NCBI GenBank assembly: GCA_017448975.1
Contig: JAFSKN010000017.1
Coordinates: 1-64,000 of the forward strand
Source: Clostridia bacterium
Lineage (GTDB): Bacteria; Bacillota; Clostridia; Christensenellales; Aristaeellaceae
Direction: 5' to 3'
DNA length: 64,000 nt
The translations under genes were made by a program, and so were the position numbers. This document shows positions 22,593 through 48,721 of this stretch, one piece after another; positions within the stretch are counted from its first letter, which is position 1, and every line of letters begins with the position of its first letter. The notes beneath the pieces are model-generated. The model saw only the letters and a list, made by a program, of their open reading frames with translations. It had not been told where the DNA came from and did not search any database.

Positions 22593-22633
22593 GGGGGAAA
22601 CCACTCTTTGGATGCCAAAGAGTGGTTTCCCCC
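22593..22633. repeat. Compensated hairpin family, copy 1
   Basis: A perfect 19-bp inverted repeat (GGGGGAAACCACTCTTTGG, 3-nt loop, complement) at 22593-22633, followed by a conserved flank (CCCTTCCGAGAAAGC). Copies at 34475 and 48682 differ inside the stem, but both arms change together. Confidence 0.85.
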
Positions 22634-27478: not shown

Positions 27479-28951
27479 TCAGCGCTTGTCCTTGTCGATG
27501 AATTCCAGGGTAATGGTGGAGAGCATCGCGAAGGCCATCACGAACAGGAACAGCATAATCCAATTTACGGCCACGTTTTCCACCGACCGTTCATAATCGG
27601 CGTTGTAGCTGGCGGAGGCGGTTTTTTCCTGAATGAGCTGCTTCACGTTCTCCTCGCCGAACAGCTCCAGCAAATCGCCGATGGAGGTCTTGAAGGTGAA
27701 TTCCCGATCCCGCTGGTTTTGCAGGATGGCGTTATTTTTCAGGAAATCCACGATCTGGCCCAGGGTTACGGGCTCGTTGAGCTGCTGATCCTGGAATTTT
27801 TCCGCCAGTTCCCCGGCGTGCAGGGCGTCCAGCACCTGGCCCAGGGTGATGGTGGTGCCGATTTCCTTTTCCAGGAGCGTCTGGGTGCTTTCATGGGTCT
27901 TCACCATATTCAGCACGTCGCCCACCGTCACGGCGGCGTTTTCCTGCGTGGCGGGAATCATTGTCAGCTCCCGCACCTCCTGGAAGGCGTCCTCCGTTAG
28001 GACCAGATCGATCAGCTGACCGAACGAAACGGGATGGGTCAGTTCTTTCTCCCGCAGGTGGAGGGTCTCATCGGCTTTGCTGAGGATTTCCGCAATTTCT
28101 CCCACCGTGAAGGACTTCATCACTTCCGTGTCCCGGCGCTTTTCCACCGCCTGGCTGTCCAGCAGATCCATAATCTGGCCCAGGGTGACGGTGCCGCCGA
28201 GCTCGTTGTTCCGCATTTTGTCCAGGGTTTTCCAGGCCGTTACCATAGGCGCTTCGTTGTAGCCGCTCTGGGAGGCGATGGCCTTGATGCCGTAATTGGA
28301 GATGGTGAAGTTGGACAGGGGTTTGGTCCAGTCGGGCAGAGGCAGCAGGCCGCCGGAAAATACCAGCTGGAAGATGAGCACGAAGGGCATCACCGTCATG
28401 GCGCCGGTGGTGGTGTGGCTGACGCTGGAAATAAACAGGCTCATCATATCGGCCGCGTAGGAGATCAGCAGCATGGTAATGCCCAGGTCCACGATCATCC
28501 AGGACGTAATGAAGCCGGTTTCCGGGAACTTGATGCCCATCATTTTCAGCACGTACAGGCTCAGGCCCGTCTGTGCGGCGCACAGGGCGAACTGATAAAT
28601 CATGTGGGCCACAACGTAGGAGGAAATATGCATGCCGGAACGGTGCTCCCGCTTGATAATGGGGCGTTCACGGCAGATGGACTGGATGGAATTGAAGCAG
28701 CCGTTCCAAATGCCCACGCAGGTCAGGGCGAACGCGCCTTTCAGGTTGCCTTCCATGGTCAGGAAGAAGTCCTTGCGGATCACCATGCTCACCAGCGCGG
28801 CGATGATGGCCGCCATGGGCAGCACCTTCCAGTCGCTCTGGTTCACGAAGAAGCGGAGCTGCTTGCCCAAGTAAATGGGCACCTGGCTGCCCCGGCCCCT
28901 GTGACGGATTTTTCTCGCGCGCCTGGTTTCCTTTACATTCAGCTCAGCCAT
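27479..28951 (-). CDS. ABC-2 type transporter permease with tandem 'TLGQI' repeats
   Basis: Membrane subunit (490 aa) paired with the ATPase gene upstream (8-nt overlap). Six or so transmembrane segments lie in the first ~215 residues and the last ~35. Between them, about residues 235-440, is a large insertion with roughly seven repeats of the form (V/I)T(L/V)GQ(I/L)xDLL: VTLGQIMDLL, FTVGEIAEIL, VSFGQLIDLV, VTVGDVLNMV, ITLGQVLDAL, VTLGQIVDFL, TSIGDLLELF. By topology this region should be outside the cytoplasm. I do not recognise this repeat in other ABC-2 permeases. The exported substrate is unknown. Confidence 0.85.
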   Translation of the reverse strand: MAELNVKETRRARKIRHRGRGSQVPIYLGKQLRFFVNQSDWKVLPMAAIIAALVSMVIRKDFFLTMEGNLKGAFALTCVGIWNGCFNSIQSICRERPIIKREHRSGMHISSYVVAHMIYQFALCAAQTGLSLYVLKMMGIKFPETGFITSWMIVDLGITMLLISYAADMMSLFISSVSHTTTGAMTVMPFVLIFQLVFSGGLLPLPDWTKPLSNFTISNYGIKAIASQSGYNEAPMVTAWKTLDKMRNNELGGTVTLGQIMDLLDSQAVEKRRDTEVMKSFTVGEIAEILSKADETLHLREKELTHPVSFGQLIDLVLTEDAFQEVRELTMIPATQENAAVTVGDVLNMVKTHESTQTLLEKEIGTTITLGQVLDALHAGELAEKFQDQQLNEPVTLGQIVDFLKNNAILQNQRDREFTFKTSIGDLLELFGEENVKQLIQEKTASASYNADYERSVENVAVNWIMLFLFVMAFAMLSTITLEFIDKDKR

Positions 28952-30281
28952 GCTGCACCTCCGCGAATTTCAGAATGAATTCGTCCGCCCGGCCTTCGCC
29001 GCCTTCTTCCTGGCGGTTGACGGACTTGACGATTTCTTCCATTTTCTCTTTGCCGAAGAATTCCCGGGCTTCCGCGATGGTGCCGAAGAAAGCCAGACGG
29101 CCCGTGCGCTTGGCGTCCTTGGCCAGCACGATCACATCGTCGAACAGATCGATCACGCGGTCGGGGGTATGGGTGATCACGATGATGATCTTGCCCTGAT
29201 CCGCGATCTGGCGCAGCTGCTGGAACAGCTCCCGGGCCATCACGCCGTCCAGGCCGCTGTCCGGCTCGTCCAGAATGAACAGGGAGGGATTGGAGATGAA
29301 TTCCATAGCGATGGACAGGCGCTTGCGCTGTCCGCCGGAGAGCTTGGACACCAGATTGTCCTTGACCGGCGTGAGGCCGAAGATCTTCATCACTTCCTCC
29401 ACCCGCGCGCTGCGGTCGGCGGCGGAAAAGTCCTTGGGCAGGCGCAGGGAAGCGGCGTCGATCAGGGTGCGGTACACGCTGTCCGAGCCGCGCATCAGAT
29501 CCAGCTGGGGCACAAAGCCGATATCGTACTGCATTTCTTTATAATGCTTGTACATATTCGTGCCGTTGAGCACCACCTCCGCCTTGGCCTTTTCGTAGCC
29601 GTTCACGGCGTTCAGATAGGTGGTTTTGCCCGCGCCGGAGCCGCCCAGCAGCAGCACCATGCGGCCGGGCTGAATGTACATGTGGATATCCCGCAGCAAG
29701 TACTTTTTCTTGAAGAATTCCGTGGCGGTGCGTTCCTCTAAGTTCACCGTCAGGCCCTGATCCAGCACCTGAGCCTTGGAGCCGGAGAAGAAATTGGACG
29801 CCTCGCTCTGGATGTCCTCCACAGTCCACAGAGGCTGGAACTTCTTATGGAAGCCCCAGAGGGGAGCCACGATGTTATCCAGCAGCGCCCAGGGAATGAT
29901 CCACCACTTTTTCTGACCGAACACCTCGATCAGGCCCAGCTCAATGCGGATCATATAGATGAACTGGATCACCAGCAGCATAAACGCGATGGCCCCGATA
30001 AACAGGTAGAGGGAGCTTTCCTCATTCAGAAACACCGTGACGATGCTGGCCGCTTCTATCAGGCCGGTCACCACCGCCAGCACGCGCCCTTCCGACTCGC
30101 GTCCGGCGCACGTGCCCAGCTTGTATTCCCGGGCGAAGGGAACCAGCGCCCACCAGCCTTTTACGCCGCACTTGTGGAAAACTCCCCACAAGCCCACGAA
30201 GGTCAGGGCGTTCCAGCCGACGGAGACCACGTCCGGGTTCGCGTTCAGGAACACCGAGCACAGAATTTTCAGGATTTGCAT
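28944..30281 (-). CDS. ABCG-like ATPase with N-terminal membrane domain
   Basis: A 445-residue fusion. Residues ~1-140 hold about four transmembrane segments, similar in layout to DUF5684-type domains; the remainder is an ABC ATPase. Motifs: Walker A GGSGAGKTTYLN, signature LSGGQRKRLSIAMEF, Walker B LFILDEPDSGLDG, H-loop ITHTPDR. The LSGGQRKR and GLDG patterns are of ABCG/White type, usually exporters. A start at ATG 30281 fits AGGGTG upstream; a GTG at 30290 is possible. It is in one operon with the DUF4230 and 55-aa proteins upstream and the repeat permease downstream. Confidence 0.88.
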   Translation of the reverse strand: MQILKILCSVFLNANPDVVSVGWNALTFVGLWGVFHKCGVKGWWALVPFAREYKLGTCAGRESEGRVLAVVTGLIEAASIVTVFLNEESSLYLFIGAIAFMLLVIQFIYMIRIELGLIEVFGQKKWWIIPWALLDNIVAPLWGFHKKFQPLWTVEDIQSEASNFFSGSKAQVLDQGLTVNLEERTATEFFKKKYLLRDIHMYIQPGRMVLLLGGSGAGKTTYLNAVNGYEKAKAEVVLNGTNMYKHYKEMQYDIGFVPQLDLMRGSDSVYRTLIDAASLRLPKDFSAADRSARVEEVMKIFGLTPVKDNLVSKLSGGQRKRLSIAMEFISNPSLFILDEPDSGLDGVMARELFQQLRQIADQGKIIIVITHTPDRVIDLFDDVIVLAKDAKRTGRLAFFGTIAEAREFFGKEKMEEIVKSVNRQEEGGEGRADEFILKFAEVQHG

Positions 30282-30302
30282 TGCATCCACCCTTTCATTT
30301 GT

Positions 30303-31230: not shown

Positions 31231-31259
31231 TTGACAGGCGCGGCGGTCCGGCATATAAT
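31231..31259 (+). promoter_or_regulatory. Consensus promoter of the FMN-riboswitch operon
   Basis: TTGACA (31231-31236), 17-nt spacer, TATAAT (31254-31259): a perfect sigma-A consensus, with a start near 31266, 15 nt before the riboswitch. Confidence 0.95.
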
Positions 31260-31280
31260 GTATCCGAATTGAACAGCAAG

Positions 31281-31390
31281 AGTTCTTCAGGGCAGGGTGC
31301 GATTCCCTACCGGCGGTAAAGCCCGCGAGCCGAAAGGCCGATCCGGTGAGACTCCGGAGCCGACAGTATAGTCTGGATGGAAGAAGAGCC
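31281..31390 (+). promoter_or_regulatory. FMN riboswitch (RFN element)
   Basis: All hallmark RFN blocks are present in order: AGGGCAGGGTG..., CCCTACCGGCGGTAA, AGCCCGCGAGC, GATCCGGTGAGACTCCGGAGCCGACAGTATAGTCTGGATGG split over 31331-31380, then GAAGAAG. P1 is TTCTTC (31283-31288) with GAAGAA (31380-31385). The match to the classical ribD/ribU leader consensus is close to complete. It binds FMN and is expected to switch off the downstream genes. Confidence 0.97.
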
Positions 31391-31411
31391 ATGCGTTTTG
31401 CGTGTGTTTTC

Positions 31412-31441
31412 CCTCCTGAAGGCTCTTTCAGGAGGTTTTTT
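31412..31441 (+). terminator. Riboswitch-controlled terminator and Shine-Dalgarno sequester
   Basis: CCTCCTGAA (31412-31420) and TTCAGGAGG (31427-31435) form a perfect 9-bp stem followed by six T. The 3' arm contains AGGAGG, the only ribosome site for the TTG start at 31443. The rival antiterminator pairs GAAGAGCC (31383-31390, partly P1) with GGCTCTTT (31421-31428). FMN binding fixes P1 and so favours the terminator. Confidence 0.92.
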
Positions 31442-31442
31442 C

Positions 31443-32324
31443 TTGTCTCGATCAATCGCTTCCCCTAAGCGCGGGTTTTCCCTGAAGCCCTACCTGTTTT
31501 TGCTGCCCATGCTGGCGTTCGCGGTGGGTTTCGTTTATTATCCTTTTTTGAAAACCTGCCTGCAAAGCGTGAGCACGGTGAATTTCCGGGGAGAGATCAC
31601 GGGCTTTTCGGGGCTGGACAACTTTCAGTATCTTTTTTCCCGGCGGGAATTCTCCATTGCCCTGGAAAATACGGTAAAGCTCATGGTCATCAATGTGCCG
31701 GTGACCGTGGTGGTCACCTTGGCCCTGGCCTGGCTGTGCAGCAATCCCCATCCCCTGCACAGCGTGTATGAAACCATGCTGTCCCTGCCCATGGTGGTGT
31801 CCATGGCCTCCATCTCCCTGATTTTCAAGGTGCTTTTGAACCCCTCCGTGGGCTGGCTGAATTACGCCTTCGGCCTGAATATCGGCTGGTACGAGGACCG
31901 GCACACCGCCATGAGCGGCATCCTGCTTTTGACGGTCTGGATGGGCATCGGGTTCAATTTCCTTTTGTTCCTGTCGGCTTTCCGGGCGCTGCCAAAGGAT
32001 ATGCTGGGCAGCGCGGCCCTGGACGGGGCGGGAAAATTCCGCACGCTTTTGCAGATTCAGCTGCCCCTGATCTCCCCCACCGTGCTGTACGTGGTATGCA
32101 CCAACATGATCCAGGCCATGATGACCAACGGCCCCATCCTGATCCTCACCCAAGGCGGCCCCTCCCGCTCCACCACGACGCTGATCTACCTCATGTACAC
32201 CTCCGGTTACGCTTCCTCCAATTACAGCCTCGCCGCGGCGGTGAGCATGGCGGCCTTCGGCCTGACGCTGCTGTTCTCCATTCTGCTGTTCATGGCGGAA
32301 AAAAGGAAGGTGCATTACCAGTGA
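31443..32324 (+). CDS. CUT1-type ABC permease (UgpA-like) under FMN riboswitch
   Basis: A 293-residue membrane subunit with six predicted transmembrane segments and the EAA-type loop (PKDMLGSAALDGAGKFRTLLQIQLPLISPT, residues ~185-214). The sequence class is UgpA/sugar permease. The TTG start is chosen because AGGAGG is 7 nt upstream and because the only earlier in-frame ATG lies inside the riboswitch. It overlaps the next permease gene by 4 nt (GTGA). The regulator in front implies a flavin-linked ligand; known flavin importers (RibU, RibXY, RfuABCD, RibM) are of other families. Confidence 0.92.
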   Translation: MSRSIASPKRGFSLKPYLFLLPMLAFAVGFVYYPFLKTCLQSVSTVNFRGEITGFSGLDNFQYLFSRREFSIALENTVKLMVINVPVTVVVTLALAWLCSNPHPLHSVYETMLSLPMVVSMASISLIFKVLLNPSVGWLNYAFGLNIGWYEDRHTAMSGILLLTVWMGIGFNFLLFLSAFRALPKDMLGSAALDGAGKFRTLLQIQLPLISPTVLYVVCTNMIQAMMTNGPILILTQGGPSRSTTTLIYLMYTSGYASSNYSLAAAVSMAAFGLTLLFSILLFMAEKRKVHYQ

Positions 32325-33145
32325 AAATCAAAGCCCGGGAAGGGTTTTTGGGGGCGCTGGCCGTGCTGCTCGGCTGCCTTGTGCTGTTTCCCCTGTTCTA
32401 CGGCGTCATGGGGGCTTTCAAAAGCCCCGCGGAGTTCGTGGCCTGGCCGCCCACGGTATTCCCCCGCAGCTTTGGGTATCTGAAAAACTTTGAAACGGTG
32501 TTTACCCAATTGCCCATGCTGCGGTATTTCTGGAACACCCTGGTGGTTTCCGTGTTCAGTACGGTAATCAAGCTGGTCATCGCTCTGCTGGCCGCTTACG
32601 CCTTTGTATTCTTTGATTTCGCCGGGAAAAAAGCATTGTTTTTCCTGCTGCTGGGCACCATGATGCTGCCGCCGGACACCCTGACCATCACCAATTACCA
32701 GACGGTTTCCCATTTGGGCCTGCTGGACACGTACTTAGGCATCGGCATCGTGTCCTTCGTGGGCGCAAGCCAAATGTTCATGCTCCGGCAGCATTTCCTC
32801 TCCTCCCCCAAGCCCATCCGGGAGGCGGCGCAGATGGACGGCTGCGGTGATTTGCGTTTTATCGCCTTCATCCTCACGCCCATGAGCCTGCCCCTGCTGC
32901 TGACCCTGTTTTTGCAGGCCTTCGTGATCCAGTGGAACGCCTACCTGTGGCCGCTGCTGGTGACCAACACCAACGAAATGCGCACTGTGCAGATCGGCAT
33001 CACCATGCTCACCACCGTGGAGGGCACCAATTACGAAACGGTGCTGGCCGGGGCCGCCGTGGCCCTGATCCCCGCCGTGCTGCTGTTCCTGTTCCTGCGA
33101 AAGAGCATCACCCGCACCATGAGCGGGGGAGCCATCGTTGGATAA
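32321..33145 (+). CDS. CUT1-type ABC permease (UgpE-like) under FMN riboswitch
   Basis: Second membrane subunit, 274 residues, GTG start with GGAAGG upstream, overlapping the first permease stop. Six transmembrane segments; EAA loop PIREAAQMDGCGDLRFIAFILTPMSLP at about residues 165-190. With the next gene it makes an importer that lacks an ATPase gene of its own. Confidence 0.92.
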   Translation: MKIKAREGFLGALAVLLGCLVLFPLFYGVMGAFKSPAEFVAWPPTVFPRSFGYLKNFETVFTQLPMLRYFWNTLVVSVFSTVIKLVIALLAAYAFVFFDFAGKKALFFLLLGTMMLPPDTLTITNYQTVSHLGLLDTYLGIGIVSFVGASQMFMLRQHFLSSPKPIREAAQMDGCGDLRFIAFILTPMSLPLLLTLFLQAFVIQWNAYLWPLLVTNTNEMRTVQIGITMLTTVEGTNYETVLAGAAVALIPAVLLFLFLRKSITRTMSGGAIVG

Positions 33146-33166
33146 AAATATAAGGAGGAACCCATC

Positions 33167-34462
33167 ATGAAGAAACTGACTGCTCTGTTCCTGATCCTGT
33201 CCCTGCTGCTGGGCCTTTCCGGCTGCGCCTTTGCGGAAGAACCGGTAAAAATCGTGTTCTGGCATTCCGCGTCCGAAGCGGCGGGGGCGCTGGTGGACAA
33301 GTACGTGAAGGATTTCAATGAAACCGTGGGCAAAGAAAAAGGCATCCAGGTGGAAGCCGTTTTCCAGGGCGCTTACGCCGATTCCGTGAAAAAAATGAAC
33401 GGCGTTCTTTCCGCCAAGCAGTTCGATACCCTGCCCGACGTGATGCAGTTGGACGCCACCGGCAAGGTGAGCTTTTCCTCCGCTGAAACGGCCTATACCG
33501 TTGATTTGGCCTTAAAGGACCATCCGGAAGCCGACCTGTCCTCCATGCTGGCCCCGGCCATGGCCAACTGGCAGCTCAAGGGCGTGCAGCTGGGCCTGCC
33601 CTTCGCCACCTCCACCACCGTGACCTTCTACAACAAAACCGCCCTGGAAGCGGCGGGCTTTTCCGCGCCCAAGACATTGACCGACGTGGGGAATTTAGCT
33701 TCCCTCAACGGGGACAATGTGGCCGTGTACGCCGCCATCCCCAACACCCCCACCTTAGCCAACTGGCTGGGCCAATTGGGCAGCGATTTGGTGAACAACC
33801 ATAACGGCACCGAGGGCAGCGCCACCGAACTGGCCTGCATCGAAAACGGCGCGCTGGCGGAATTCCTCACCGCCTGGAAAGCGCTGTACTTATCCGGCGC
33901 GCTGGCCAACAAAAACGGCTCCGGGGATGAATTCGTGGCCGGGCGGCAGCTGATCATGACCGATTCTTCTTCCAAAGTCGCCAACATGCTGAACAAGATC
34001 GGCGGCCGTTTCGAGCTGGGCGTCGCGCCCTATTTGAAGGTGAGCGATTCTTCCGCTTCCGGGGCCACCGTATCCGGCAGCTGCCTGGTAATGTTCGATC
34101 ACGGCGACGCCCGGAAGGAAGCGGCCTGGGCCTTCGTGCAGTATCTGACCGGCGCGGAAGTGCAGGCGGATTTTGCCAAGGGCACCGGCTATCTGCCCTC
34201 CAACAAGGAAGCCCAGGAAAGCGAAACCTGGCAGGCCCTGATCGCGGAATATCCCCAGTACCAGGTGGGCCTGGACCAGCTTCTGGAAACCCCGGACACC
34301 ATGCGCAGCGTCACCGTGGGCCCCTCCGCCGATTTCTACTACGGCATCATCAACGATATTTCCGATATGCTGGAAAGCGACCTGTCCGTGGAGGAAACCG
34401 TCGATCTCATGGCGAATGATTTAGGCGGCATGCTGACACAGTACGCCAAGGCGAATCCGTAA
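33167..34462 (+). CDS. Solute-binding lipoprotein, UgpB-like, under FMN riboswitch
   Basis: A 431-residue binding protein. The N-terminus has a lipobox-like LGLSGC-AFAEE, so it is probably lipid-anchored. The mature part begins VKIVFWHSASEAAGALVDKYVKDFNE, the UgpB-type (glycerol-3-phosphate/glycerophosphodiester binder) start rather than a maltose-type start. It has FATSTTVTFYNKTALEAAGF in the usual place. UgpB members bind phosphorylated polyol ligands, which would be compatible with a ribityl phosphate such as FMN, but this is inference only. Confidence 0.9.
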   Translation: MKKLTALFLILSLLLGLSGCAFAEEPVKIVFWHSASEAAGALVDKYVKDFNETVGKEKGIQVEAVFQGAYADSVKKMNGVLSAKQFDTLPDVMQLDATGKVSFSSAETAYTVDLALKDHPEADLSSMLAPAMANWQLKGVQLGLPFATSTTVTFYNKTALEAAGFSAPKTLTDVGNLASLNGDNVAVYAAIPNTPTLANWLGQLGSDLVNNHNGTEGSATELACIENGALAEFLTAWKALYLSGALANKNGSGDEFVAGRQLIMTDSSSKVANMLNKIGGRFELGVAPYLKVSDSSASGATVSGSCLVMFDHGDARKEAAWAFVQYLTGAEVQADFAKGTGYLPSNKEAQESETWQALIAEYPQYQVGLDQLLETPDTMRSVTVGPSADFYYGIINDISDMLESDLSVEETVDLMANDLGGMLTQYAKANP

Positions 34463-34474
34463 GAAAAAATTTCT

Positions 34475-34515
34475 GGTGGAAACCATTCTTTGGAGGCCAA
34501 AGAATGGTTTCCCCC
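34475..34515. repeat. Compensated hairpin family, copy 2
   Basis: Inverted repeat of 19-nt arms (34475-34493, 34497-34515) with ...ACCATTCTTTGG / CCAAAGAATGGT...; one mismatch near the outer end. It is followed by the same flank as copy 1 (CCCCTTCCAAGAAAGCC). It separates the importer from the fucosidase gene. Confidence 0.85.
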
Positions 34516-34586: not shown

Positions 34587-35939
34587 ATGGCAGACGCGAT
34601 CATCAACGGCATGCACGGATGCAGCCGGGAAGACGAGTATGTGCGTCCCAGCGATCCGCTGGTGCAGGAAAAGCTGGAATGGTTCCAGGATCAGAAGTTA
34701 GGCCTGATGATGCACTTCGGCATCTATTCCGAACTGGGCATCTGCGAATCCTGGCCCCTGTCCGACGGCGACGCGGACTGGAGCCGGGGCGGCATTGATT
34801 GGGAAACGGACGGCAAAGCCTTCCGTGCCCAGTATGAAGGGCTGAAAAAAAGCTTCAATCCCGTGCGTCTCCAGCCCGAAAAATGGGCGGACGTGGCCGC
34901 GCGGAACGGCTTTAAATACCTGATCTTCACCACCAAGCACCACGACGGCTTCTGCATGTACGATACCAAGTACACTGATTATAAAGTCACCGACGGGGAC
35001 TGCCCCTTCCACACCCACAAGTACGCCAATATCGCCAAAGCGGTATTCGACGCCTTCCGTGCCCGGGGCATCGCCATTGCCCCGTATTTTTCCAAGCCGG
35101 ACTGGCACTGCCCCTGGTACTGGGCGGAGGGCATGGAAAAGCCCGTGGCCTTTAACCGCAACCCCACCTACGACCCCAAAGCCCACCCCGAAATCTGGGA
35201 GCAATTCGTACAGTACACCCACAATCAGCTCATGGAGCTGGTGCGGGATTTAGGCCCCATTGAAGTCCTGTGGCTGGACGGGGGCCAGGTGGGGCCCCAG
35301 AACGGCCAGGACATCCGCCTGTCCGAATTCATGGCGGAAGCCCGGAAGCTCCGGCCCGGCCTGCTCAGCGCCGACCGTACCATCGGCGGCCCCAACGAAA
35401 ACTACATCACCCCCGAGCAGAGCGTGCCCACCGGCCCCATCCGCGTGCCGTGGGAAAGCTGCGTCACCGTGGGCACGGCCTTCTCCTACCGGTTCGACGA
35501 AACGTACAAAACGCCCCGCCAGCTTACGCATCTGCTGATCGACGTGGTGTGCCGGGGCGGGAATTTGGCCCTGAACATTGCCCCCCAGCCTGACGGCAGG
35601 CTGCCCGAACCCGCCGTCAAAGCGGTGGACGGCTTGGGTGCGTGGCTGAAAGACAACGGAGAAGCCATTTACGGCACCCGGCTGGCCGACCCCAACGAAC
35701 AGGGGCCCGTGGCCTTTACCCGCAAGGGTGAAACCCATTATGCCCTTCTGCGCCTGCCCGAAGGAGAAAAACTGCCCGCCGGCCTGCTGATTCCCTGGCC
35801 CCATGCAGCGCGCAAGCTTACTCTGCTGGGCCTGGAAGCGTCCCTGCCCTTTGAGCGCACGGACAGCGGATTGCTTGTACACCTGCCGGAAATCCTGGTG
35901 GGACAGAACCCCATTGCCCCGGCGTTCAGGATAGAATAA
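34587..35939 (+). CDS. Alpha-L-fucosidase, GH29 (cytoplasmic)
   Basis: Hydrolyses terminal alpha-L-fucose. The 450-residue protein has the GH29 barrel: FQDQKLGLMMHFGIYSE, YLIFTTKHHDGFCMYDTKYTDYKV, and the nucleophile region EVLWLDGGQVG, with Asp in WLDG as the likely nucleophile. No signal peptide, so the substrate must be imported. ATG 34587 is supported by AAAGGA at 9 nt; earlier in-frame ATGs lie in the hairpin repeat. The gene has no visible promoter of its own and may be reached by read-through from the FMN-riboswitch operon. Confidence 0.93.
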   Translation: MADAIINGMHGCSREDEYVRPSDPLVQEKLEWFQDQKLGLMMHFGIYSELGICESWPLSDGDADWSRGGIDWETDGKAFRAQYEGLKKSFNPVRLQPEKWADVAARNGFKYLIFTTKHHDGFCMYDTKYTDYKVTDGDCPFHTHKYANIAKAVFDAFRARGIAIAPYFSKPDWHCPWYWAEGMEKPVAFNRNPTYDPKAHPEIWEQFVQYTHNQLMELVRDLGPIEVLWLDGGQVGPQNGQDIRLSEFMAEARKLRPGLLSADRTIGGPNENYITPEQSVPTGPIRVPWESCVTVGTAFSYRFDETYKTPRQLTHLLIDVVCRGGNLALNIAPQPDGRLPEPAVKAVDGLGAWLKDNGEAIYGTRLADPNEQGPVAFTRKGETHYALLRLPEGEKLPAGLLIPWPHAARKLTLLGLEASLPFERTDSGLLVHLPEILVGQNPIAPAFRIE

Positions 35940-36016: not shown

Positions 36017-36127
36017 GAAAAGTGGAAAGTGAAAAGTGAAAATATGAATGGTGTTCTCTTTGCGGAGCAGCTAACCATATTTTCAGCTATCCAACTTTCC
36101 ACTTTTCACTTTTCAATTTCCACTTTT
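36017..36127. repeat. Heptad inverted-repeat element 6
   Basis: Left arm AAAGTGG-AAAGTGA-AAAGTGA (36018-36043); right arm of TTTCCAC-TTTTCAC-TTTTCAA-TTTCCAC units (36092-36127). The core is about 48 nt. The last unit runs into the CDF stop codon (36126-36128). Confidence 0.85.
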
Positions 36128-37001
36128 ACTTCGCGGGATTCTCGTGAATCATGATATGCTTGACCTTGGGGAACCGCTTTTCGATGTCGTCGTGCACCTG
36201 TTCGGCGATGGCGTGGGCTTCGTTCAGGGGCAGGCTCCCGTCCACCGATACTTCCATTTCCACATAGATCCGATTGCCGAACTGCCGGGTCATGAGCCGG
36301 TCCACGGCCTGAATGCCGGGATGGCTCAGGGCACAGTCCCGCAGGGCCTTTTCCGTTTCCGCGCCGCAGCTCCGGTCCACCATTTTGTCGATGGCGTCCC
36401 GGAAAATATCGTAGGCCGCCTTGCCGATGAACAGGCAGATGCCCACGCTGGCGACGGGGTCCAGCACCGGCAGGCCCATCCGCGCCCCGGCGATGCCGAT
36501 GAGCGCGCCGATGGAGCTTAAGGCGTCGGACCGGTGATGCCACGCGTCGGCTTTCAGGGCGTTGGAATCGATGGCCTTGGCGGCTTTCACGGTGTAGCGG
36601 TACATGCCCTCCTTCACCGCGATGGACACCACGGCGGCGATCAGCGCCAGCATGCCGGGGGCTTCCAGCGCGGCGGTCTCGGAAGACATAATTTTCATGA
36701 CGCCTTCATAGCCGATCATGAGCCCCGTGATCAGCAGCACCACGGCCAGCACGATGGCCGCCACGCACTCCATCCGCTCGTGGCCGAAAGGGTGTTCCTT
36801 GTCGGAATCCTTTTCCGCCGCCCGCACCCCAAACATCACGATCACCGTGCTGAACACGTCCGACATGGAATGCACGGCGTCGGACACCATGGCCCCGGAA
36901 TGGGCCAGCAGCCCCGCCAGCAGCTTCACGGCGGACAGGGCCGTATTCCATAAGATGGTCATTTTGGAAACGCGCATGGCCACCTTTGCGGCGTTTTCCA
37001 T
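36126..37001 (-). CDS. Cation diffusion facilitator family transporter
   Basis: Proton-coupled efflux of divalent metals. The 291-residue protein has six transmembrane segments; the metal site motifs are HSMSD (VSDAVHSMSDVFST, TM2) and HHRSD (DAWHHRSDALSS, TM5), with the C-terminal cytoplasmic ferredoxin-like domain ending in KHIMIHENPAK. HSxxD/HHxxD in this form is of the Fe/Zn or Mn CDF type; the exact metal is not settled. GGAAGGAG precedes the start. A separate promoter, leader and terminator-like hairpin lie upstream, suggesting metal-responsive attenuation. Confidence 0.92.
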   Translation of the reverse strand: MENAAKVAMRVSKMTILWNTALSAVKLLAGLLAHSGAMVSDAVHSMSDVFSTVIVMFGVRAAEKDSDKEHPFGHERMECVAAIVLAVVLLITGLMIGYEGVMKIMSSETAALEAPGMLALIAAVVSIAVKEGMYRYTVKAAKAIDSNALKADAWHHRSDALSSIGALIGIAGARMGLPVLDPVASVGICLFIGKAAYDIFRDAIDKMVDRSCGAETEKALRDCALSHPGIQAVDRLMTRQFGNRIYVEMEVSVDGSLPLNEAHAIAEQVHDDIEKRFPKVKHIMIHENPAK

Positions 37002-37032
37002 ATTTCCAACTCCTTCCAGTGGATTTCTACGC

Positions 37033-37075
37033 AAAAAACGCGGGAACAAAACAGTCTATGTCTGTCCCGCGGAAT
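37033..37075 (-). terminator. Terminator-like hairpin in the CDF leader
   Basis: Minus-strand CGCGGGA and TCCCGCG arms (with CA/TG extension) followed by six T (37033-37038), about 30 nt before the CDF start codon. Confidence 0.75.
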
Positions 37076-37142
37076 TCATGCTTTTTCCCGCTGCCGCCTT
37101 GCGCGGCCCGGCTCCCAAGGGCCTGATCATCGAATGATTTTT

Positions 37143-39366: not shown

Positions 39367-39409
39367 AGCGTCCCGTGTGACCAAATATGGAAAGGAAAGG
39401 GAAGAACAT

Positions 39410-40510
<1,101 letters not shown>

Positions 40511-48681: not shown

Positions 48682-48721
48682 GGGGGAAACCGCTCTTTGG
48701 TGCCCAAAGAGCGGTTCCCCC
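48682..48721. repeat. Compensated hairpin family, copy 3
   Basis: Arms 48682-48700 and 48704-48721 (...ACCGCTCTTTGG / CCAAAGAGCGGT...), one base shorter on the right. It sits 17 nt after the aspS stop and may serve as its terminator, though the following T-run is poor. Confidence 0.85.

Follow-up and report, generated by a model that had tools for sequence, protein, structure and literature searches.

What does an FMN (flavin mononucleotide) riboswitch control when it stands ahead of an importer that resembles those for sugars and glycerol phosphates? The question is raised by a stretch of 64,000 nucleotides from a Clostridia bacterium (Christensenellales, Aristaeellaceae; GenBank assembly GCA_017448975.1, contig JAFSKN010000017.1, positions 1 to 64,000, forward strand), hereafter called the window. 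A preliminary description had noticed an RFN element with a consensus promoter directly before two permeases of the CUT1 type of ATP-binding cassette (ABC) importers and a UgpB-like lipoprotein, and had proposed a new uptake route for riboflavin, FMN or flavin adenine dinucleotide (FAD), or for a ribityl-phosphate precursor. Here, the source genome was compared with 59 relatives (a set of 60 genomes) and with a wider family set of 308 genomes. We show that the linkage of riboswitch and importer is conserved and that the importer replaces the flavin transporter RibU. Judged from sequence, the importer very probably carries a flavin of some kind, and flavin uptake in place of RibU is well supported. 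We consider it likely that the system is an FMN-repressed importer of phosphorylated flavin (FMN and/or FAD), standing in for RibU in auxotrophic gut Clostridia.

An FMN riboswitch ahead of a CUT1-type importer

The leader and the three genes behind it consist of the following parts.

31231..31259, + strand: promoter of the sigma-70 type (TTGACA, 17 nt, TATAAT), 12/12 consensus
31279..31392, + strand: FMN riboswitch aptamer (RFN element), RF00050, 119.3 bits
31412..31441, + strand: terminator-like hairpin (31412-31435; 10 pairs, loop of 4) with a T run, six T directly behind the stem
31443..32324, + strand: permease 1, UgpA-like, TTG start; Pfam BPD_transp_1; UgpA model 140 bits, below the cut-off of 335
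32321..33145, + strand: permease 2, UgpE-like, GTG start that overlaps the permease 1 stop codon; BPD_transp_1; UgpE model 134 bits, cut-off 297
33167..34462, + strand: substrate-binding lipoprotein (SBP), UgpB-like; Pfam SBP_bac_8 (E 5.6e-34) and SBP_bac_1; UgpB model 85 bits, cut-off 411

The aptamer matches model positions 1-138 of 138 (E 2.9e-27, gathering score 66.2); with the promoter and the Pfam assignments, this confirms the arrangement that the preliminary description had read from the letters. A second FMN riboswitch was not found in the source genome G000 (3.08 Mb, 80 contigs, 85% complete). The pair of BPD_transp_1 permeases together with an SBP_bac_1/8 protein places the importer in the CUT1 type. 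UgpA, UgpE and UgpB are the best NCBIfam models for the three proteins and, since the scores lie far below the equivalog cut-offs, the proteins are UgpAEB-like and not UgpAEB. The operon contains no ATPase gene, and the permeases would therefore presumably use a shared CUT1 ATPase; one CUT1-type ATPase is encoded at 39377-40510 of the window, ahead of other permeases.

The TTGACA/TATAAT pair also lies upstream of the riboswitch in the leaders of all eight relatives examined, and promoter, aptamer, CCTCCTGA...TCAGGAGG hairpin and TTG start recur together in seven leaders of the same genus; the leader of another genus (L031) has a different hairpin. The scanned region gave 11 terminator-like matches, where shuffled sequence would be expected to give 4.9. 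The leader hairpin has AGGAGG (31430-31435) as its 3' arm, seven bases ahead of the TTG start at 31443; this arm is likely the Shine-Dalgarno sequence of permease 1. Because of this position, the hairpin could be a terminator, a block of the ribosome-binding site or both; in the L040 leader the T run is broken, so that translation control would fit there. At high FMN, the aptamer would keep P1, the hairpin would form, and transcription would stop and/or the Shine-Dalgarno sequence would be hidden. At low FMN, the 3' strand of P1 may pair with the hairpin and the operon would be expressed. The best predicted duplexes of this strand fall on GGCUCUUUC inside the hairpin in the window (-16.9 kcal/mol) and in L034 (-18.6 kcal/mol). 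Since it pairs best elsewhere in the remaining seven of the nine leaders (window included), a role of the pairing as antiterminator is plausible, if weakly supported.

Conserved linkage and replacement of RibU

Genomes with the SBP were collected by searching the 308 family genomes, most of them incomplete drafts, with an SBP alignment at E < 1e-170; the family searches for SBP, RibU and flavokinase were limited to scoring the top 5, 10 and 13 candidates of each genome, respectively. A close homologue occurs in 40 of the 308 genomes, in 10 genera; two more genomes with distant matches near 1e-62 only were left out. The order riboswitch-permease 1-permease 2-SBP is found in 29 of these 40 genomes (nine of the genus of the source genome, G034 and nineteen others), at protein identities of 50-96%. 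With this recurrence, the riboswitch ahead of the importer is not a rearrangement confined to the source genome, which the preliminary description had named as one outcome that would speak against its reading, and a chance or stray riboswitch is rejected as well. In G014 the SBP is on a different contig from the riboswitch-permease 1 piece, and the upstream regions of the importers of G277 and G278 are cut by contig ends. In G034, a binding protein and a permease that by eye both resemble the NMT1/sulfonate type are encoded upstream of an FMN riboswitch (L115, 807-2505).

Seen from the riboswitch, 48 of the 60 genomes carry it, in 53 listed places. Among 40 places examined with their flanks besides the window, eight stand ahead of the permease pair (seven in this genus, one in genus g7), two at contig ends and nearly all others ahead of ribU; in G056 the riboswitch precedes a riboflavin-synthesis operon. 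A pattern-based scan of a wider genome collection returned 27 loci with identities of 48% or more and 53 others at 29% or less. By record title, 25 of the 27 come from Clostridia, Clostridiales, Christensenellaceae or Christensenella, many of them titled as ruminant gut; the remaining two, from a Spirochaetales and an Oscillospiraceae member, have no riboswitch.

RibU, the one riboflavin-transporter family searched for, was sought with alignment A1 (E <= 1e-20) in the 308 genomes. It is present in 254 of them. Among 307 enumerated genomes, those with the SBP carry RibU in 5 cases and lack it in 35, as against 249 with and 18 without RibU among the others. This exclusion has a Fisher p of 2e-27, a test that treats genomes as independent, and a p of 1e-12 when stratified by genus. 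Within the genus of the source genome, none of the 15 SBP genomes and 13 of the 14 others have RibU. Seven genera (g1, g7, g35, g60, g62, g70, g72) contain both SBP genomes lacking RibU and genomes with RibU, with one genome each in the contrast in g35 and g72; no contrast can be drawn in g56 and g61, and g71 departs from the pattern, as three riboswitch-less SBP genomes there retain RibU. An rpoB tree of 31 genomes, built by a quick method from rpoB rows selected by blastp (26 of the 29 genomes of the genus and five of other genera), requires 4 changes between SBP and RibU, the minimum forced by the supported branches.

RibH, the only rib gene searched for, was not found in 59 of the 60 genomes, the source genome included, and for this reason they appear to be flavin auxotrophs that would need an importer. 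The preliminary description had asked whether genomes with the importer lack ribU and the rib genes; this is borne out for both genes looked for. Use of a ribityl-phosphate precursor would need RibH, and such a ligand is therefore unlikely. The proposed uptake route for riboflavin, FMN or FAD gains support from the linkage and from the missing RibU, and is narrowed below towards phosphorylated flavin.

A divergent RibU in the SBP genomes was considered and rejected, since weak matches (E ~1e-5 to 1e-9) occur also in genomes with a true RibU (G001, G002, G017, G027); we infer that they are other S components. Three further observations concern RibU. The first frame after the riboswitch in L060 (G031, C14) has its RibU-like match in a region with a longer open frame (376 aa); long frames of 390-395 aa occur in G140-G142 too, and in all of these RibU may have an extra N-terminal part; and in G013, of this genus (83% complete, 6% contaminated), importer, RibU and flavokinase were all not found.

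The ligand and its rivals

Which flavin is carried can be approached from the pocket of the binding protein. The best solved-structure matches of the SBP include glycerol-phosphate-binding proteins. Chain 9lff, which we take to be the UgpB of known contacts, aligns such that, with the numbering shifted by 20, all eight contact residues covered agree. The phosphate contacts of UgpB, given in the accessible text of its report as Tyr64, Ser143, Ser266 and Tyr342 (PMC12718374), map to Y70, S149, S267 and Y342 of the SBP. All four are invariant in 26/26 subfamily rows, which include Spirochaetales, Oscillospiraceae and other riboswitch-less members. The glycerol contacts are lost in the same 26/26 rows, Glu88 being replaced by Ala97 and Arg393 by Thr383 (the latter by multiple alignment). 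Gly303 is retained as G304, and the Trp188/Trp191 clamp is not kept as a pair, with W200 a possible match of Trp191 in the multiple alignment. FMN and FAD contain phosphate and riboflavin contains none; the ligand of the SBP is probably phosphorylated, as far as these residues tell. Two cysteines of the SBP, C224 and C306, are invariant in 26/26 rows and absent from 8 UgpB-like rows; they possibly form a disulfide or touch the ligand.

Searches for flavokinase (PF01687) give a second line of evidence, with no match in the 15 SBP genomes that belong to the genus of the source genome. In the family set, the flavokinase alignment (A4) went unmatched in 30 of the 40 genomes with the SBP and in 66 of the 267 without it (p 1e-9, with genomes again treated as independent; genus-stratified p 0.004). 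On the genus tree, an average of 3.4 of 4 pairs go in the expected direction and none in the opposite one. The FMN adenylyltransferase domain (FAD_syn, PF06574) is present in 58 of the 60 genomes and in 14 of the 15 SBP genomes of this genus, with fragments only in G010 and none in G016. It forms a frame without a kinase domain in G028 (182 residues) and G019 (210 residues), and in G000 it lies at the end of a longer open frame. The archaeal-type CTP-dependent riboflavin kinase was found in 0 of the 60 genomes.

Third, 21 of the 40 SBP genomes encode a protein of ~298 residues immediately behind the SBP (the gene is broken into two frames in G196). The one member run against Pfam matched the PF01261 TIM barrel, and for both members tested the best NCBIfam model was CbiR (NF041277), at 36 and 27 bits and thus below the cut-off of 105; fructoselysine 3-epimerase and IolE (epimerase/dehydratase) came next. 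The alignment with endonuclease IV covers eight of its nine metal ligands; the residues at these eight positions are invariant in 20/20 rows, as is a Glu in the place of the ninth ligand. The best solved relative is the uncharacterised MJ1311 (E 4e-18). A sugar isomerase appears less likely, as the endonuclease-IV ligand positions are kept and CbiR is the best NCBIfam model. The corresponding position in G322 is taken by a protein 37-40% identical to two Pfam-confirmed NPP-type phosphodiesterases beside the Spirochaetales homologue. The two kinds of protein suggest that a diester such as FAD is among the substrates.

Joined together, these lines point to a path in which the lipoprotein would bind the phosphate end of the flavin and hand it to the two permeases for import. 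Imported FMN could serve directly, or the FMN adenylyltransferase still present could convert it to FAD; riboflavin kinase would then be dispensable and often lost. The endonuclease-IV/CbiR-like protein, in about half of the genomes, or the NPP-type phosphodiesterase, present once, may cut an imported flavin diester, for instance FAD to FMN. Whether the whole amounts to a salvage that bypasses riboflavin (import of intact FAD and FMN, intracellular cleavage of FAD to FMN by either phosphodiesterase-like protein, rebuilding of FAD by the adenylyltransferase in the absence of its usual kinase partner, loss of the kinase) we put forward only as a tentative proposal; if true, ready-made flavin nucleotides and not vitamin B2 are what the cell requires.

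Several findings weigh against the import of phosphorylated flavin in place of RibU. Nine of the 40 SBP genomes have no riboswitch ahead of the importer: G007, G011, G012, G015, G021 and G024 of this genus, and G290, G293 and G297. For the six of the genus, no hidden or degraded riboswitch was seen at the gathering threshold, the only threshold tried, and a scan for short motifs gave scattered matches only. The five SBP genomes that also carry RibU are G284, G290, G293, G297 and G308. With respect to the kinase, the 66 genomes that have neither the SBP nor a flavokinase match and the ten SBP genomes that retain flavokinase both count against the proposed loss, and within this genus the association of SBP and kinase loss comes from ~4 independent pairs in the tree (p 0.125-0.5). 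G082, a genome of 97% completeness in 2 contigs, has RibU and the riboswitch (L206) and no flavokinase match; genomes of this kind make an unrecognised kinase possible, or the entry of FMN through RibU. The same holds for G006, G008, G009 and G019, which have RibU, no flavokinase match and an FMN adenylyltransferase domain. The TIM barrel weakly matches epimerases too (D-tagatose 3-epimerases at E 4e-4, besides the NCBIfam models). No endonuclease-IV-like gene stands beside the importer of the source genome, the locus being the part of that genome looked at. Nor is the TIM barrel tied to kinase loss: by hand count, flavokinase went unmatched in 15 of the 21 genomes that have the barrel behind the SBP and in 15 of the 19 that do not. 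Finally, the phosphate contacts alone are no proof of a flavin ligand, because they are shared by a riboswitch-less relative in a Spirochaetales metagenome-assembled genome (L122, 1668-12667; 48% identity). This relative keeps the same pocket residues, and its gene cluster also encodes a CUT1-type ATPase beside the permeases, two NPP-type phosphodiesterases, and two zinc and one iron alcohol dehydrogenases; the cluster perhaps reflects an ancestral use of polyol phosphodiesters.

Of the rival explanations, the one that survives best is that free riboflavin is imported, as by RibU, and phosphorylated by a riboflavin kinase of an unrecognised family. It would account for an importer that replaces RibU in riboflavin auxotrophs and for the ten genomes with flavokinase, and the five RibU genomes without flavokinase named above hint at such a kinase, if not at FMN passing through RibU. 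It is countered by the invariant set of UgpB phosphate contacts, the enrichment of flavokinase absence among SBP genomes, the missing archaeal-type kinase and the phosphodiesterase-like protein behind the SBP, and we hold it to be unlikely. Less probable still, and by a good way, is a non-flavin phosphodiester or polyol phosphate, such as a fragment of teichoic acid or of a phospholipid head group, with FMN as a nutritional signal only. The glycerol-phosphate-binding proteins among the solved structures and the Spirochaetales cluster speak for it; yet it leaves unexplained both the near-exclusion with RibU within seven genera, in genomes without RibH, and the importer being the sole FMN-riboswitch target found in the genome. 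That an ordinary carbohydrate importer, for instance of fucosides, gained the riboswitch by chance rearrangement would fit the CUT1-type permeases and the adjoining fucosidase gene and is scarcely credible, given the linkage in 29 of 40 genomes, at the protein identities stated above, and the rarity of that gene beside the importer.

34587..35939, + strand: GH29 alpha-L-fucosidase (Pfam PF01120, E 1e-73), the next gene on the same strand, a variable neighbour

The fucosidase follows the SBP in just 5 of the 40 SBP genomes (G000, G005, G010, G016, G025) and is not in the conserved importer unit; an importer of fucosides is rejected on this count.

Other features of the window were noted in passing. 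An inverted-repeat element, GAAACCATTCTTTGG and its complement, lies between SBP and fucosidase (34479-34511), with a second copy at 22597-22629 and a half copy at 48686-48700; with 5 matches in the window against 0.24 expected, it looks like a dispersed palindromic element. A NiCo riboswitch (37060-37140, - strand, 44.5 bits), also present in L078, stands directly ahead of a cation-efflux gene (36126-37049, - strand), the expected type of target. A permease-like protein of 490 aa (27479-28951, - strand) contains several imperfect repeats of ~45 residues in its middle (TLGQIxDxL-type, by eye), and an ABC ATPase gene (28944-30290) adjoins it.

Relation to known flavin transporters

An importer of this kind would bring a flavin transporter into a class of ABC systems hitherto associated with sugars and glycerol phosphates, and would explain the flavin supply of gut Clostridia without RibH and RibU. 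It would suggest annotation fixes where such genes are called sugar or glycerol-3-phosphate transporters, and offers a testable case of a UgpB-type pocket re-used for a cofactor. In the accessible part of a gut survey, reconstructions describe the auxotroph pattern as riboflavin plus RibF (PMC6593275); should the importer carry FMN or FAD, a nucleotide route is missing from such reconstructions of how gut bacteria exchange vitamin B2.

The flavin transporters named in the accessible parts of three surveys, a 2015 study of FMN-riboswitch genes (PMC4418817), a 2013 regulon study (PMC3766115) and the gut survey of 2019 (PMC6593275), are RibU, RibM/PnuX, ImpX, RibN, RfnT, RibXY, RibZ, RibV and RfuABCD; no CUT1 system is among them in those parts. 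By title and opening of the abstract, the open-access matches listed contain no earlier description of a CUT1 flavin importer, a search that left the subscription literature mostly uncovered. By its sequence, the importer appears as a divergent branch of UgpB-type CUT1 importers outside the named flavin-transporter families, and it would act like RibU.

Among the ABC systems, RfuABCD is likewise an importer of flavins; its RfuA is of the BMP type, in contrast to the CUT1/UgpB-like proteins described here. RibXY is closer in organisation: according to the accessible text of two surveys, it is an ABC-type flavin importer under an FMN riboswitch and, like the present operon, without an ATPase component, whereas its proteins are ThiXY-like and annotated as of the sulfonate/nitrate/taurine type (PMC3766115, PMC4418817). 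With the glycerol-3-phosphate importer UgpBAEC, the new importer shares the permease and SBP families and the phosphate contacts; it differs in scores under the NCBIfam cut-offs, in the replaced Glu88 and Arg393 and in its control by an FMN riboswitch. CbiR, in the part of its report at hand a cobamide-remodelling phosphodiesterase that acts on a vitamin cofactor (PMC7733943), has the PF01261 TIM barrel in common with the SBP-adjacent protein, which falls far below the CbiR cut-off and is encoded beside an FMN-riboswitch importer. RibU, finally, is an S component of the energy-coupling factor (ECF) type and the nearest system in its role: it takes up flavins in auxotrophic Firmicutes under the control of an FMN riboswitch, stands in the same regulatory position in sister species, and in Listeria, by the accessible text of its report, imports riboflavin, FMN and FAD (PMC9973259). 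In contrast to RibU, the new importer belongs to an unrelated class, with two CUT1 permeases and a lipoprotein SBP in place of an ECF module in the operon.

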